Shown: positions 16,196 to 23,839 of the stretch, in pieces | Position numbering within the stretch: the stretch's first letter is position 1 | How the letters are laid out: every line of letters begins with the position of its first letter | Notes under the pieces: generated by a model | The model's input: only the letters and a program-made list of their open reading frames with translations | Database searches by the model: none | Told to the model about the DNA's origin: nothing | Assembly (NCBI GenBank): GCA_025350145.1 | Contig: JANXYH010000042.1 | Location: 1-45,556 of the forward strand | DNA from: Burkholderiales bacterium | GTDB lineage: Bacteria; Pseudomonadota; Gammaproteobacteria; Burkholderiales; Burkholderiaceae_C | Direction of reading: 5' to 3' | Length of the DNA stretch: 45,556 nucleotides | Translations under genes and position numbers: made by a program

Positions 16196-16907
16196 ACCGC
16201 TGAGCCTGACCGTGCATGAGTTGCCCGCGCCGCGCCTGGACGTGGCCGAGGCCACGGTCGACGGGCGGGCGGCACAGCGCACCCGCGGCGGTCGCTGGCG
16301 CATGCTGCTGGTGGCGGCGGTCTGCTTTGCGCCGGTGCTGGCCAGCTACCTCACCTACTTCGTCTGGCGACCGGGCGGCAGCACCGCCTATTCGAGCCTG
16401 ATCCAGCCCAGCCAGGCGCTGCCGGCGCTGTCGGCCAAGCGCCTTGATGGCACGACCGTAGCGCTGCGCTCGCTGACCGGCCAATGGCTGCTGGTGCTGG
16501 CCCATGGTGGCATCTGCGACAGCGCCTGCGAGCGGCTGCTGTACACCCAGCGCCAGTTGCGCGACATGCTGGGCCGCGAGCGCGACCGCCTCGACAAGGT
16601 TTGGCTGGTGTTGGACGACGCAGCGCTGGCGCCGGCCTTGCAAGCCGCGCTGCTGGCCAGCCCGGGCATGCTGATCCTGCGCCTGCCGCGCGAGCAGGTG
16701 GCCGCCTGGTTGAAACCGGCCCAGGGCCAGCGCCTGGAGGATCACCTCTACATCGTCGATCCGCTCGGCGAATGGATGATGCGTGCGCCCGCCAACGCCG
16801 ATCCGTCCAAGCTCAAGCGCGACCTGGAACGGCTGCTGCGCGCCTCGGCTGGCTGGGACCTGCCCGGCCGAGGCGCGTCGGCGTCGCCGGGCGCCAGCGC
16901 GCCATGA
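16179..16907 (+). CDS. SCO-like membrane-anchored thioredoxin-fold protein
   Basis: 242 residues from a GTG inside the SURF1 3' end. A cytoplasmic N-terminal tail and one helix (LLVAAVCFAPVLASYLTYFVW) precede a periplasmic domain. That domain carries CDSAC (Cys113, Cys117) and a later EDHLYIVDP with His189. The CxxxC plus distal His spacing matches the copper site of SCO proteins, although overall similarity to classical SCO is weak. I infer copper handling or thiol reduction for CuA assembly. It lies between SURF1 and ctaA, and a classical sco follows ctaB. Confidence 0.7.
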   Translation: MTADAEPLSLTVHELPAPRLDVAEATVDGRAAQRTRGGRWRMLLVAAVCFAPVLASYLTYFVWRPGGSTAYSSLIQPSQALPALSAKRLDGTTVALRSLTGQWLLVLAHGGICDSACERLLYTQRQLRDMLGRERDRLDKVWLVLDDAALAPALQAALLASPGMLILRLPREQVAAWLKPAQGQRLEDHLYIVDPLGEWMMRAPANADPSKLKRDLERLLRASAGWDLPGRGASASPGASAP

Positions 16908-18082
16908 GCATGGCCGAGGCCGCAGACCCTTTGCTGCCCTTGCTGCGGATGGCGCTGGCGGTGCTGCTGCTGGCGCTGCTGCCGCTGGCCTGGTGGTGGC
17001 TGCGCCAGCGCGGGGCGGATCAGCGCAGGCGCTTGGCCGCATTGCTGGCGCTGACCCTTTTTCTGACCTTTGACCTGATCGTCTTCGGCGCCTACACCCG
17101 GCTGTCGGATTCCGGCCTGGGCTGCCCCGACTGGCCCGGCTGCTACAGCCAGGCCAGCCCGATGGCGGCGCACGCCGACATCGCCCGGGCCCAGGCTGCC
17201 TTGCCCAGCGGCCCGGTCAGCCACACCAAGGCCTGGATCGAGATGGTCCACCGCTACCTGGCGATGACCGTCGGCGTCTTGATCGCGGTGCTGGCGGCGG
17301 TTTGCTGGCGGGCGCGGCGCTGGCTGCCGCATTCACCTTGGTGGGCCGTCGCCACGCTGGGCTGGGTCATCGTGCAGGGCCTGTTCGGTCGCTACACCGT
17401 CACGCTGAAGCTGTACCCGGCGGTTGTCAGCGCCCACCTGCTGGGCGCCATGCTGCTGTTGGCGCTGCTGGCCCTGCAGTACAGCAGCCTGCGCGGGCGG
17501 CCCCTGCTGGCGACGGCTGTCTCGGGCCGGGCGATTTGGGCGGTGCTGGCCCTGGTGCTGGGGCAAATTGCCCTGGGCGGCTGGGTCAGCAGCAACAACG
17601 CGGTGCTGGCCTGTCAGGGCTTTCCGCGCTGCAATGGCCAATGGTGGCCGGCGATGGACGCGGCGCAGGGCTTCAGCTTGCTGCGCGAGCTGGGGCGCAG
17701 CGGCGAGGGCGGTTTCCTGCCGGCCCAAGCGCTGGTAGCGATCCATCTGGCGCACCGGGGCGCCGCCCTGGTGGTGCTGCTGGCGCTGGCCTGGTTGGCC
17801 TGGGCGCTGCGCCGTGGCGCTGATGCCCAGGCGCGGCGGGCTGGCGCAATCCTGGCCGCTTTGCTGCTGCTGCAACTCGCCAGCGGCGTCTCCAACGTGG
17901 TGCTGGGCTGGCCGCTGGCGGCGGCGCTGGGCCACAGCGCAGGTGCTGCTGCGTTGGTCGGCCTGCTGACCAGCCTGGCCTGGCGCCGCCGCATCGCTGG
18001 GCAAGCTTGGGGCCCGTCCGTGCAGGCGCACACTCCCGGGCCCGGCCGCGTCGCCCCATGGCCAGCGGCGACCCAGCCATGA
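16904..18082 (+). CDS. ctaA: Heme A synthase (COX15/CtaA)
   Basis: 392 residues from the ATG at 16904, which overlaps the stop of the upstream gene. CtaA oxidises the C8 methyl of heme O to the formyl group of heme A in the inner membrane. It has about eight helices and the signatures [29 protein letters not shown], and later [19 protein letters not shown] and [10 protein letters not shown]. The conserved His residues (MVHR, SAHL, LAHR, LGHS) are the expected heme ligands. The stop overlaps the ctaB start. Confidence 0.95.
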
Positions 18083-18993
18083 CCACGACCACGACCATCG
18101 TCGCCCCGTCACCCCGCAGCAGCCGCTGGCGGCAATACAGCGCGCTGACCAAGCCGCGGGTGGTGCAGTTGATCGTGTTCTGCGCCGTGATCGGCATGCT
18201 GCTGGCCGTGCCCGGCCTGCCGGACCTTGGCCTGACGGCCGCCGCCACCGTCGGCATCTGGTTGGTGGCGAGCGCGGCGGCGGCGTTCAACTGCCTGGTC
18301 GAGCAGCAGATTGACCGCAAGATGGCCCGCACTGCCTGGCGGCCGACCGCCAAAGGCGAGCTCAACACGCGCCAGGCGCTGGTGTTCTCGGCCCTGCTCG
18401 CCGGCGCCGGTGGCATGCTGCTGTGGTGGTGGGTCAACCCGCTGACGATGTGGCTGACCATTGCCACCTTTGTCGGCTACGCCGTCGTCTACACCGTGAT
18501 CCTGAAGCCGCTGACGCCACAGAACATCGTCATCGGTGGCGCCTCGGGGGCGATGCCGCCGGTACTGGGCTGGGCGGCGATGCGCGGCGAGGTCGGGCCC
18601 GAGGCGCTGATGATGTTCCTGATCATCTTCCTCTGGACACCGCCGCACTTCTGGGCACTGGCGCTGTACCGGGTCGAGGATTACCGCCGCTCCGGCCTGC
18701 CGATGCTGCCCGTCACCCATGGCAATGAATTCACCCGGCTCAACGTGCTGCTCTACACCCTGGTGCTGTTCGCTGCCGGCTTGCTGCCGTTCATCACCGG
18801 CATGAGCGGCTGGCCCTACCTGCTGGCGGCGGTGCTGCTCGGCGCCGGTTTCATCGGCTACGGCTTCGCGCTGTGGCGTTCGTACAGCGACGCGCTGGCG
18901 CGCAAGACCTTCCGCTTCTCGCTCTACTACCTGGCGCTGTTGTTCACTGCGCTGCTGCTGGACCACTACCTGACACCATGGCTGCCACTGTGA
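18079..18993 (+). CDS. ctaB: Protoheme IX farnesyltransferase (heme O synthase)
   Basis: 304 residues from the ATG at 18079, which shares ATGA with the ctaA stop. It attaches a farnesyl group to heme B, the step before CtaA. The UbiA-family signature [10 protein letters not shown] is followed by [15 protein letters not shown] (first Asp-rich site), [20 protein letters not shown], and [10 protein letters not shown] with [14 protein letters not shown]. Seven to nine helices are expected. The first codons are an ACGACC-type hexamer repeat giving a Thr-rich N-terminus. Its 3' end overlaps the sco gene by 16 bases. Confidence 0.96.
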
Positions 18994-19598
18994 ATTGGCT
19001 TCGACGGCGCTGGCTGATGGGCGCCGCCTTGTCCGCACTCAGCGCCTGCGACATGAGCCGACCGGGCGTCGAGAAGCCGTCCTTCCACAGCGTCGACATC
19101 ACCGGCGCCGAGTACGCCCGCACCCTGAACTTGCCTGACTTCAACGGCCAGGCGCGCACCCTGGCCGACTTCAAAGGCAAGCTGCCGGTGGTGTTCTTCG
19201 GCTACACCCAGTGCCCCGACGCCTGCCCGACCACCATGGCCGAATTGGCCGAGGTCAAGCGCGCGCTGGGCGCAGACGGCGCGCGCGTGGTCGCTGTCTT
19301 CGTCAGCGTTGACCCCGAGCGCGACACGGCCGAGTTGCTCAAGGCCTACATGGCCAATTTCGGCGCCGACTTCGTCGGCCTGCGCGGCACACCCGAGCAG
19401 GTTCAGGCCGCCGCCAAGGAGTTCAAGGTCTTCTACGCCAAGGTGCCCGGCAAGACCGAGAACAGCTACACCGTCGACCACACGGCGGGCAGCTACATCT
19501 TCGATGCCCAGGGCAAGGTGCGCCTGTTCAGCCGCTATGGCAGCGGCGCCAAGTTCCTTGCCGAGGACCTGAAGATCCTGCTGGCCGAGAAGGCCTGA
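18978..19598 (+). CDS. SCO1/SenC family copper chaperone, lipoprotein
   Basis: 206 residues from the ATG at 18978. The N-terminus has a lipobox (LSAC, Cys24), so the protein is probably a membrane-anchored periplasmic lipoprotein. The thioredoxin-like domain has the copper ligands CPDAC (Cys79, Cys83) and His168 in TVDHTA, plus [10 protein letters not shown] and VSVDPERDT signatures. It delivers copper to the CuA site of CoxB. It is the last gene of the oxidase block; a strong hairpin that serves rpoH follows on the opposite strand. Confidence 0.94.
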
Positions 19599-19655: not shown

Positions 19656-20582
19656 TCAGGCGGCCGCTGCCTCCATCGCCTTGCGCATCTTCTTCATCGC
19701 CGCCACCTCGATCTGGCGGATGCGCTCGGCGCTGACGCCGTATTCGGCCGCCAGATCGTGTAGCGTCATGCCGCCGGAGTTGTCGTCGTTAACCTTGAGC
19801 CAGCGCTCCTCGACGATCCGCCGGCTGCGGCTGTCCAGCACTTCCAGCGCCTGCAGCAGGCCTTCGCCGGCCAGCGCGTCGCGGCGCCGCGACTCCAGCA
19901 CCTGAGTCGGCTCGCCGCGGTCGTCGGCCAGGTAGGCGATCGGTGCGAACGACTCTTCGCCGTCGTCGGTCTGCGGCTCCAGCGCCACATCTCCGCCCGA
20001 CAGCCGGGTCTCCATCTCGATCACCTCGTCGGGCTTGACGTTCAGCGTCCGCGCCACATGCTCGACTTCGCCGGGCGAGAGGGTGTTGCGGTGCGCGTCG
20101 GCGTCGCTGGCGTCGCGCTTGAGGCGCTGCTTCATCGAGCGCAGGTTGAAGAACAGTTTGCGCTGCGCCTTGGTCGTGGCCAGCTTGACCATGCGCCAGT
20201 TGCGCAGGATGTACTCGTGGATCTCGGCCTTGATCCAGTACAGCGCGTAGCTCACCAGGCGCACGCCCTGGTCCGGGTCGAAGCGCTTGACGGCCTTCAT
20301 CAGCCCGACATTGCCCTCCTGGATCAGGTCGCCGTGCGGCAGGCCATAGCCCAGGTACTGGCGCGACACCGATACCACCAGGCGCAGGTGCGAGAGCACC
20401 AGCCGGCCGGCGGCGGAAAGGTCGCCCGCGTCGCGCAGCCGCCGGGCGTAGGAGGATTCTTCGTCCTGCGTCAGCATCGGCAGCCGGTTGACCGACGAGA
20501 TGTAGGCGTCGAGATTGCCCAGCGAGGGCACCATCGCCCAGGGGTCACGCAAAGACAGCGAGGTGGAAGTTGACAGGTTCAT
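19656..20582 (-). CDS. rpoH: RNA polymerase heat-shock sigma factor (sigma-32)
   Basis: 308 residues from the ATG at 20582. A GTG at 20609 is in frame but lies only about six bases from the probable transcription start. The RpoH box QRKLFFNLR is present, as are region 2 (GDLIQEGNVGLMKAVKRFDPDQG, in parts; YALYWIKAEIHEYILRNW) and the region 4 helix-turn-helix ending GVSAERIRQIEVAAMKKMR. This identifies sigma-32 rather than another group. Its promoter overlaps a CIRCE-type inverted repeat, so HrcA repression is likely. It lies downstream of ychF on the same strand but probably has its own promoter and a strong terminator. Confidence 0.95.
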   Translation of the reverse strand: MNLSTSTSLSLRDPWAMVPSLGNLDAYISSVNRLPMLTQDEESSYARRLRDAGDLSAAGRLVLSHLRLVVSVSRQYLGYGLPHGDLIQEGNVGLMKAVKRFDPDQGVRLVSYALYWIKAEIHEYILRNWRMVKLATTKAQRKLFFNLRSMKQRLKRDASDADAHRNTLSPGEVEHVARTLNVKPDEVIEMETRLSGGDVALEPQTDDGEESFAPIAYLADDRGEPTQVLESRRRDALAGEGLLQALEVLDSRSRRIVEERWLKVNDDNSGGMTLHDLAAEYGVSAERIRQIEVAAMKKMRKAMEAAAA

Positions 20583-20621
20583 GGCGTACTGGGAGTAACC
20601 CGAGGTCACTTGGTTCCCGAA

Positions 20622-20651
20622 ATATTAGCACTCCTGGGTTGGGAGTGCCAA
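20622..20651 (-). promoter_or_regulatory. rpoH: Probable promoter of rpoH
   Basis: On the - strand TTGGCA (20651-20646) matches the -35 consensus at five of six bases. TAATAT (20627-20622) matches the -10 at four of six, with an 18-base spacer. Transcription would begin near 20615, about 33 bases before the ATG at 20582. The element lies in the 63-base gap after ychF. Confidence 0.6.
20625..20651 (-). promoter_or_regulatory. CIRCE-type inverted repeat (putative HrcA operator)
   Basis: TTAGCACTC, nine bases, GAGTGCCAA at 20625-20651. The CIRCE consensus is TTAGCACTC-N9-GAGTGCTAA; the left arm is perfect, the right arm has one mismatch, and the spacer is exactly nine. The repeat covers the -35 and spacer of the predicted rpoH promoter. 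CIRCE is the binding site of the heat-shock repressor HrcA, usually found before groESL or hrcA. Confidence 0.85.
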
Positions 20652-20672: not shown

Positions 20673-21767
20673 TCAACTGCTGAACAGGAAGTTCATCACG
20701 TCGCCGTCCTTGACGACGTAGTCCTTGCCCTCGGCGCGCATCTTGCCGGCGTCCTTGGCACCTTGCTCGCCCTTGCAGGCGATGTAGTCGTCGAAGGCGA
20801 TGGTCTGGGCGCGGATGTAGCCCTTCTCGAAATCGGTGTGGATCACGCCGGCCGCCTTGGGGCCGGTGTCGCCGATGTGGATGGTCCAGGCGCGCACCTC
20901 CTTGACCCCGGCGGTGAAGTAGGTCTGCAGGCCCAGCAGCTTGAAGCCGGCGCGGATCAAGCGGTTCAGCCCGGGTTCGTCCTGGCCCATCTCCTGCAAG
21001 AACAGCAGCCGGTCGGCGTCGTCCATGTCGGCCAATTCGGCCTCGGTCTTGGCACAGATCGCCACCACCGGGGCGTTCTGCGCCGCAGCGTATTCGGCCA
21101 GCCGGTCGAGGAAGGGGTTGTCGCTGAAACCGTCCTCGGCGACGTTGGCGACGAACATCGCCGGCTTGGCCGTGATCAGGCACAGCGGCTTGAGGATCAG
21201 CCACTCCTCCTTGCTGAAATCGATGCCGCGCACCGGCCTGGCCTGGTCCAGCGCCGCCTGGCATTTCTCCAGCACCTTGACCAGGGCAGCGGCCTCCTTG
21301 TCGTTGCCAGAGCGCGCGGCCTTGACGTAGCGGTGCAGGCTTTTCTCGACCGTGGCCAGGTCGGCCAGGCAGAGCTCGGTCTGGATCACCTCGATGTCGT
21401 TGATCGGGTCGATCTTGCCGGCGACGTGGATGACGTTGTCGTCCTCGAAGCAGCGCACCACGTTGACGATCGCGTCGGTCTCGCGGATGTGGCTGAGGAA
21501 CTGGTTGCCCAGGCCCTCGCCCTTGCTCGCGCCCGCCACCAGGCCGGCGATATCGACGAACTCGACGATCGCCGGGACGACCCGTTCGGGCTTGACGATC
21601 TCGGCCAGGCGGGCCAGCCGCAGGTCGGGCAGCTCGACCACGCCGACATTGGGCTCGATCGTGCAGAACGGGTAGTTCTCGGCCGCGATCCCGGCCTGGG
21701 TCAAGGCATTGAAAAGGGTGGACTTGCCGACATTGGGCAAGCCCACGATGCCGCACTGGAGGCTCAT
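20673..21767 (-). CDS. ychF: Redox-regulated ATPase/GTPase YchF
   Basis: 364 residues from the ATG at 21767, giving the standard start [20 protein letters not shown]. It is a universally conserved Obg-related P-loop NTPase that prefers ATP and is linked to ribosomes and oxidative stress. The P-loop is [29 protein letters not shown] is the G3 region, and the C-terminal TGS domain contains [17 protein letters not shown], read in parts. The end MNFLFSS is as in homologues. In-frame codons upstream to 21905 do not resemble the family. Confidence 0.96.
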
Positions 21768-21903: not shown

Positions 21904-23034
21904 ATGGCACAGGTTCAAGTCGCAGTTCGCGGCACAGGCGTGGTCGGCATGACCCTGGCGCTGGCGCTGTCACGCCAGGGCTTGCGCGTGGGCCTGCCGG
22001 GCGACGCGCTGCGGGCCAGCGCCGAAGGTGGGCGCGGCGACGTCCGGGCCTACGCCCTCAACAGCGCCTCACGGTCGCTGCTGACGGCGCTCAAGGTCTG
22101 GGACGCCTTGCCGGCGGACGCGGTCACGGCGGTCGACGACATGTGCGTGGTCGGTGACGCGGCATCGGGGCGGATCGATTTCTCGGCCTGGCAGCAAGGC
22201 GTGGCGGCGCTGGCCTGGATCGTCGACGCCGCTGAGCTCGACAACGCCTTGCGCACCGTGCTGCGCTTTGCGCCGCATGTCCAGGCCCTGGCCGAGGCCG
22301 ACGGCGAAACTGCCGACGCCGAATTGACGGTGCTGGCCGAGGGCCGGGATTCGGCCGGCCGGCGCGCCCATGGCGTGGCCTGGCAGCCGCAGGCCTATGG
22401 CCACAGCGCCTTGGCGGCGCGGCTGGTGGCTGGCCAGCCCCACGCCAACACCGCCTGCCAGTGGTTTGCGTCGCCCGCCGTGCTGGCCTTGCTGCCGCTG
22501 GACCGGCCCGCGCCGGACACCAGCTACGCCCTGGTCTGGTCGATGCCCAGCGAGCGCGCCGAGCAACTGCGGCAACAGCCCCAGGCCGAATTCGAGGCAG
22601 CGCTGAACGCCGTCTGCGGTGCTGGCTTCGGCGGGCTGAGGCTGGCCAGCGAGCGCAGCGCCTGGCCGTTGGCGCTGGCCCGGGCCGAGCCGGTCTGCGG
22701 CCCCGGCTGGGCGCTGGTCGGCGACGCGGCGCACACCATCCACCCGCTGGCCGGTCAGGGGCTGAACCTGGGGCTGGCCGATGTTGCGGCGCTGAGCCGG
22801 GTGATCGCCGAGCGCGAGCCCTGGCGCGCCCTGGGCGACGAGACACTGCTGCGCCGCTATGCCCGCGCCCGGGCGTTGCCGACCCAGGCCATGGCCTGGG
22901 TCACGGATTCGCTCCTGCACCTGTTCGCCGCCGAGCAGCCGCTGGTGCGGGAACTTCGCAACCGCGGCATGACTCTGCTCAACCGATTGGCGCCGCTCAA
23001 GCGCGCCTTGACCGCCAGGGCGATGGACGCCTGA
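21904..23034 (+). CDS. UbiH/UbiF/VisC/COQ6-family FAD monooxygenase
   Basis: 376 residues of the ubiquinone-biosynthesis hydroxylase family, aromatic-ring hydroxylases that use FAD and NADPH at the membrane surface. The N-terminal dinucleotide site is [18 protein letters not shown], slightly unusual because the usual GxGxxG starts with an Arg before it. The second FAD motif [22 protein letters not shown] is intact, read in parts. Which ring position it hydroxylates cannot be told from sequence alone. A TACAAT at 21890-21895 sits only 8 bases before the ATG, suggesting a very short leader. The next gene, dsbC, follows by 40 bases. Confidence 0.9.
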
Positions 23035-23074
23035 GCCCACCTCTACCTACCCACGTTCTGCCTGAAAGCTACCC

Positions 23075-23839
23075 ATGACCGAGCGATCCAACCTGCGCCG
23101 TGGCGCCCTCTGCCTGGCCCAGGCTGCCGCACTGGCGACCGTGCTGGCGACTGCACTCGGCGCCGGCAGCGTGCGGGCCGACGAGGCGGTGATCCGCAAG
23201 GTGCTGGCCGAGAGGCTGCCCAACTTCCCCAAGATCGACGAGGTCAGCAAGACCGCTATCCCGGGCATCTTCGAGGTCCGCGTCGGCAGCGATCTGTTCT
23301 ACGCCGACGAGGCCGGCAACCACCTGATCCAGGGCGCGATCATCGACACCCGCACCCGCACCGACCTGACCCAGGCGCGCATTGACAAGCTCACGGCGGT
23401 GGACTTTGCCGCCCTGCCGTTGAAGGACGCGATGCTGATCAAGCAGGGCACCGGCGTGCGCAAACTGGTGGTCTTCGCCGACCCGAACTGCGGCTACTGC
23501 AAACGCATCGAGCGCGACCTGCTGACGCTCAAAGATGTCTCGATCTACACCTTCCTCTACCCCATCCTCGGGCCGGACTCGGGCGTCAAATCCAAGGACA
23601 TCTGGTGCGCCAAGGACCCGGGCAAGGCCTGGCGCAACTGGATGGTCGACGGCCTGATGCCGGCCAAGGCGGTGGCCGGGTGCGACACCACGGTGCTGGA
23701 GCGCAACGTCGCGCTGGGGCAGAAGTACAAGGTCCAGGGCACGCCTGCGGTGGTGTTCGAGGACGGCACGCGCGCCCCCGGGGCGATCCCGGCGGCGCAG
23801 ATCGAGCAGCGCATCAGCGCAGCGACCAAGCGCAGTTGA
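23075..23839 (+). CDS. dsbC: Thiol:disulfide interchange protein DsbC
   Basis: 254 residues. A periplasmic disulfide isomerase. A signal peptide ends near GAGSVRA-DEA. The N-terminal dimerisation domain (VLAERLPNFPKIDEV, in parts) is followed by a thioredoxin domain with redox motif CGYC in FADPNCGYCK, a second Cys pair (WCAK, AGCD) and the cis-Pro loop GTPAVVFEDG. The length is close to E. coli DsbC with signal peptide. It lies downstream of the UbiH-type gene, perhaps on one transcript. Confidence 0.94.
   Translation: MTERSNLRRGALCLAQAAALATVLATALGAGSVRADEAVIRKVLAERLPNFPKIDEVSKTAIPGIFEVRVGSDLFYADEAGNHLIQGAIIDTRTRTDLTQARIDKLTAVDFAALPLKDAMLIKQGTGVRKLVVFADPNCGYCKRIERDLLTLKDVSIYTFLYPILGPDSGVKSKDIWCAKDPGKAWRNWMVDGLMPAKAVAGCDTTVLERNVALGQKYKVQGTPAVVFEDGTRAPGAIPAAQIEQRISAATKRS

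Follow-up and report, generated by a model that had tools for sequence, protein, structure and literature searches.

A CIRCE-type HrcA operator predicted to double as the housekeeping promoter of rpoH in Burkholderiales, with a sigma-E-like promoter beside it

The sigma-32 gene rpoH in the stretch of DNA analyzed here (45,556 nucleotides of a Burkholderiales genome, further called the window) is preceded by a CIRCE-type inverted repeat. Our reading, to which we give a probability of roughly 0.8 on the sequence evidence, is that this repeat would act as a working HrcA operator and at the same time constitute the housekeeping promoter of rpoH, and that a second, sigma-E-like promoter also serves the gene. 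The coupling of HrcA to rpoH appears ordinary for the order; the geometry of the promoters and the place of the second one in the branch of the window are the less expected part. The elements are as follows.

20673 to 21767, minus strand: ychF, the upstream neighbor (TIGR00092, 491.6 bits, cut-off 279.2)
20625 to 20651, no strand assigned: CIRCE, the predicted HrcA operator, one mismatch, kept along with hrcA in the order sample
20646 to 20651, minus strand: sigma-70-like -35, TTGGCA, within the left arm of the operator (rpoH sense)
20622 to 20630, minus strand: extended -10, TG-C-TAATAT, the right arm of the operator plus TAT
20611 to 20617, minus strand: sigma-E-like -35, GGAACCA, downstream of the operator (GGAAC in 18 of 20 same-genus genomes)
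20590 to 20594, minus strand: sigma-E-like -10, TCCCA, 16 nt after the -35
19656 to 20582, minus strand: rpoH (sigma-32), start ATG 20582 (TIGR02392, 388.6 bits, cut-off 323.1)

The repeat reads TTAGCACTC-N9-GAGTGCCAA on the plus strand at 20625-20651, one mismatch away from CIRCE (membership was defined by the pattern TTAGCACTC-N9-GAGTGCTAA with few mismatches), and in the sense of rpoH TTGGCACTC-N9-GAGTGCTAA followed by TAT. It stands 21 bases from the ychF stop, ahead of rpoH, both genes lying on the minus strand. With up to 3 mismatches allowed, the window contains no second match, and no match arose in 100 dinucleotide shuffles. When the 4.56-Mb assembly to which the window belongs was scanned at up to 3 mismatches, CIRCE was found in two places, before groES (0 mismatches) and before rpoH (1 mismatch), and the reversed control pattern had no match. 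The shuffles and this controlled genome-wide scan rule out a chance repeat. The preliminary description of the region had recognized a CIRCE-type repeat with a one-base departure and a nine-base spacer and judged chance unlikely, both rightly; its span of 20622-20651 has to be divided, the operator occupying 20625-20651 and the extra three bases being the last three of the -10. It also placed the sigma-32 gene under HrcA and named a CIRCE before groES and an hrcA gene in the genome as things to look for. The former is the exact site just mentioned and the latter is present (PF01628, 216.7 bits, no internal stop); the hrcA frame is still open where the contig stops, so its 5′ end lies outside the assembly's view. 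Together with the conservation and co-loss described below these finds support the placement under HrcA, and 20625-20651 is very probably an HrcA operator.

Conservation was followed in an order sample of 120 genomes from 51 families, of which 117 carry rpoH above the cut-off, 108 have a match to the HrcA family (one of them, in G085, a 41.6-bit piece with an internal stop) and 105 contain CIRCE somewhere at up to 3 mismatches. Joined by coordinates, CIRCE stands no more than 500 nt ahead of the RpoH domain in 102 of the 117 rpoH genomes: in 101 of the 104 which also have hrcA and in 1 of the 13 which lack hrcA or keep only the G085 remnant (Fisher 7.5e-13, on counts that ignore relatedness). 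The three misses with hrcA (G009, G026 and G073) have a 4-mismatch copy before rpoH. The contrary case, G052, has the rpoH CIRCE and no hrcA match in an assembly that is 84% complete and divided into 520 contigs. Three genomes without hrcA (G034, G053 and G115) are also without the site, and other sampled members of their families have both. On these counts the predicted rpoH operator disappears along with hrcA in the order sample.

Among near relatives, taken as the best 80 titled loci from one scan, the comparison of the ychF-rpoH gap proposed in the preliminary description gave CIRCE before rpoH, at 0-2 mismatches, in 79 of the 79 loci long enough to be tested. In the class, CIRCE at up to 2 mismatches was found in 108 of 143 genomes. 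It precedes rpoH, at up to 3 mismatches, in 28 of the best-scoring 30 rpoH loci and in 29 of the 30 genomes with matches listed for both CIRCE and rpoH; these sets of 30 overlap, consist of the best-scoring matches listed, include two genomes of the order and are not a random sample. The order, near-relative and class counts rule out an operator peculiar to this genome. The sequence comparisons thus give good support to the view that the predicted HrcA-rpoH coupling is ordinary, close to universal in the order sample and common in that of the class; the joining of the two heat shock circuits that had been proposed for the window is supported as such and is usual in the order.

Between 20500 and 20760 the sole sigma-70-like site on either strand is TTGGCA-18-TAATAT, running on the minus strand from 20651 to 20622, with TG preceding its -10. 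The repeat hence extends over the -35 and the spacer, both noticed before, and reaches to the middle of the -10. The sigma-70 -35 consensus is TTGACA, and by our comparison with this consensus the one base by which the operator departs from CIRCE brings the -35 nearer to it. For the order, 105 of 106 rpoH sites with at most 4 mismatches were used (one too near a contig end was left out) and compared with other CIRCE sites, of which there are 124; 73 were taken from the 98 that have 1 mismatch or none, and 71 of these 73 stand before groES. The -10 ends in a T that is the third base after the operator; this position has T in 104 of 105 rpoH sites vs 5 of 71 groES sites, giving an extended -10 of the form TGCTAAnAT in the operator-promoter. 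In 61 of 71 groES sites a TA..[AT]T hexamer starts 5 bases ahead of the operator, which indicates that the groES operator follows its promoter, whereas at rpoH, in the same genomes and with the same operator and regulator, the operator is the promoter. Operator bases without a role in the hexamers are as invariant at rpoH as at groES. We consider it highly likely that the rpoH operator and the sigma-70 promoter are one and the same element.

Promoters for sigma-E have a GGAACTT-like -35 and a TCNNA-like -10 about 16 nt apart. The order set contains 80 GGAAC, TGAAC or GAAAC strings before the operator, with TCNNA at a spacing of 16 in 45, of 17 in 15 and of any other single length in at most 6 of the 80; the near set contains 52, with TCNNA at spacing 16 in 36 and at any other single spacing in at most 4. 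In the order set most strings lie between -17 and -14, in the near set 37 of the 52 lie at -12, and the sigma-E-like -10 shifts along with them, so that the pair occurs in several registers relative to the operator. In the commonest order registers the TC coincides with operator bases that are invariant, hence the -35 and the final A alone carry information there. By a fixed rule (GGAAC-N15-17-TCNNA) the pattern overlaps the operator in 58 of 105 order sites and is missing from the other 47; in the order and near sets together it was found in 99 of 184, vs 35.1 on average and 47 at most when the upstream halves were exchanged in 500 swaps, a test that ignores relatedness. The free spacer of the operator begins with T-N-A in 56 of 105 rpoH sites vs 1 of 71 groES sites, an excess that an overlapping sigma-E-like promoter would explain. 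The genome of the window has rpoE (256.8 bits, cut-off 236.15); no sigma-E-like pattern was seen before this rpoE, which is not a required feature. Two hrcA-less genomes, natural knock-outs, keep the pattern before rpoH: G034 has GGAACTT-N16-TCATA with the palindrome at 5 mismatches and retains the extended -10, TGATAAAAT, and G115 has TGAACTT-N16-TCTTA with the palindrome at 6. No such pattern was found within 260 nt of rpoH in 10 of the 12 genomes that have no site and either no hrcA or only its remnant. From these patterns the second rpoH promoter is probably of the sigma-E type. The preliminary regulatory reading is supported as to the operator over the promoter and missed this second promoter, which changes the reading.

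In the window the pattern is GGAACCA-N16-TCCCA, an imperfect match to the sigma-E consensus, and stands downstream of the operator. The genus set comprises 21 genomes, own included, and no rpoH was found in one of them (G277); the remaining 20 all have the operator at 0-1 mismatch and all have the downstream pattern. Its GGAAC-type block starts 8 or 9 bases after the operator (GGAAC in 18 genomes, one-base variants in 2), TC follows at spacing 16 in 17 genomes or 17 in 3 (the script required 16 or 17), the final A of the -10 is present in 18, and the distance from the -10 to the ATG is 7 nt in 16 genomes and 6 nt in 4. This geometry agrees with the earlier choice of ATG 20582 as the start; a GTG at the place of 20609 occurs in the window alone (1 of 20) and is rejected as the rpoH start. 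A sigma-E start site usually lies about 7 nt after the -10, which here falls on the A of the ATG and predicts a leaderless rpoH message, and no Shine-Dalgarno-like core precedes the ATG in 18 of the 20 genomes. We regard a leaderless message in the genus of the window as a tentative prediction from this spacing. All 40 near-set loci with the upstream pattern only show a Shine-Dalgarno-like string no more than 50 nt from the operator; those with the downstream pattern have one within 50 nt after the operator in 6 of 13 and none in 7, and in those 6 it speaks against a leaderless message. Of the 110 rows in an RpoH tree, 109 were typed by the position of the sigma-E-like pattern; the 34 downstream-type loci fall in one 48-row branch (SH-aLRT 96) together with 11 untyped and 3 upstream ones; one locus with both patterns stands outside it, and the position label needs at least 4 changes over the tree.

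The blocks GGAAC-N16-TC-N6/7-ATG of the genus could also be a translation signal or leader element, in which case HrcA would control rpoH and the operator-promoter alone would read it. They end 6-7 nt before the ATG, the place of a ribosome signal, which in 18 of 20 members has no Shine-Dalgarno-like core. Against this, the same blocks with the same spacing stand upstream in relatives, in several registers to the operator, and the leader of the window shows nothing unusual in folding (z 0.74) and matches no Rfam family at threshold (best E 0.22), results that rule out a known RNA or a strong fold. We consider such a leader element rather unlikely, and a second promoter of the sigma-E type remains our preferred reading of the blocks.

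From the presence of the operator we infer that HrcA binds and represses at rpoH. Bound there it would hide the -35 and the extended -10. In other bacteria GroE keeps HrcA active; here sigma-32 synthesis would be held down as long as it does so, and GroE occupied by unfolded protein would let HrcA release groES and rpoH together. The second, presumptive sigma-E promoter would also feed rpoH. Where the operator covers it, as in roughly half of the order sites, HrcA would gate both inputs; in the genus of the window, where it lies downstream, envelope stress would probably bypass HrcA and the sigma-E-like message would begin on the AUG or beside it. It is conceivable, at somewhat below even odds, that in the branch of the window the envelope-stress promoter moved from under the operator to just downstream of it, giving rpoH an HrcA-vetoed, GroE-sensing entrance with a short leader and an HrcA-free, envelope-sensing entrance with a leaderless message. 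If so, one sigma factor would be translated via two initiation routes, depending on the stress, and the shifted promoter would be a case of promoter rewiring.

HrcA might have little physiological effect at rpoH if, as in E. coli, sigma-32 were set chiefly at the levels of translation, stability and chaperones, and a gonococcal paper calls transcriptional control of rpoH relatively minor (PMC3032703); conservation across 51 families and repeated joint absence with hrcA speak for a selected effect and make this unlikely. That the palindrome is kept solely because its right arm is a -10 and its left arm a -35, with HrcA inactive at rpoH, is very improbable, as the site goes with hrcA (1/13 vs 101/104), the hrcA-less G034 retains its extended -10 in a palindrome at 5 mismatches, and the non-hexamer bases are as invariant as at groES.

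Escherichia coli rpoH has several promoters, one of them sigma-E-dependent, and resembles the window in that housekeeping and sigma-E-type promoters feed the gene; it differs in that E. coli, where the PF01628 control gave no HrcA match, lacks the repressor whose gene is present in the genome of the window. A 2003 paper on HrcA/CIRCE regulons of beta-, gamma- and epsilon-proteobacteria, which deals with the same regulator in probably overlapping bacteria, may already list rpoH. In Geobacter sulfurreducens an exact CIRCE has been predicted at -51 before rpoH, besides those of groESL and hrcA-grpE-dnaKJ (PMC545781). The coupling is thus of a known kind, the Geobacter genome having CIRCE ahead of rpoH like that of the window. 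The former case is an exact, predicted site in one delta-proteobacterium, whereas the site of the window has one mismatch, belongs to a set of groES and rpoH only, coincides with a promoter and was traced across the order. In the sections available, one Cupriavidus start-site paper gives several starts for rpoH (PMC7563307) and the passages of a second do not treat the rpoH promoter (PMC9045368). Four gonococcal, plant-pathogen and Xylella papers gave no lead: the term CIRCE is absent from the main text of the first three, and the fourth was looked through for HrcA and rpoH. Among the sources covered, with most subscription journals outside the search, we recognized no report of an rpoH operator or a leaderless rpoH message in this order.

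The textbook heat shock response is that of E. coli, where HrcA is absent. In the bacteria studied here a single circuit seems to join sigma-32 and HrcA, and its near-universal occurrence in the order sample and frequent occurrence in the class sample suggest that the E. coli state may be derived.

Several further observations were made in the genomes scanned. G085, a genome without CIRCE at up to 3 mismatches, contains a short fragment that resembles hrcA and is interrupted by an in-frame stop (G085:C49:23722-24117); it looks like a decaying hrcA. G047 has two rpoH genes above the cut-off, each with its own CIRCE, and some genomes have a third CIRCE-like site at 2-3 mismatches (e.g. G072:C1:1203814 and G010:C23:12323). 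One genome of the class, G145, has two listed CIRCE sites, neither ahead of rpoH. In the window itself the translations, judged by eye, show heme A synthase-, heme O synthase (CtaB)- and SCO-type-like neighbors at 16484-19598 and a UbiH-like oxygenase and a DsbC-like protein at 21904-23839.
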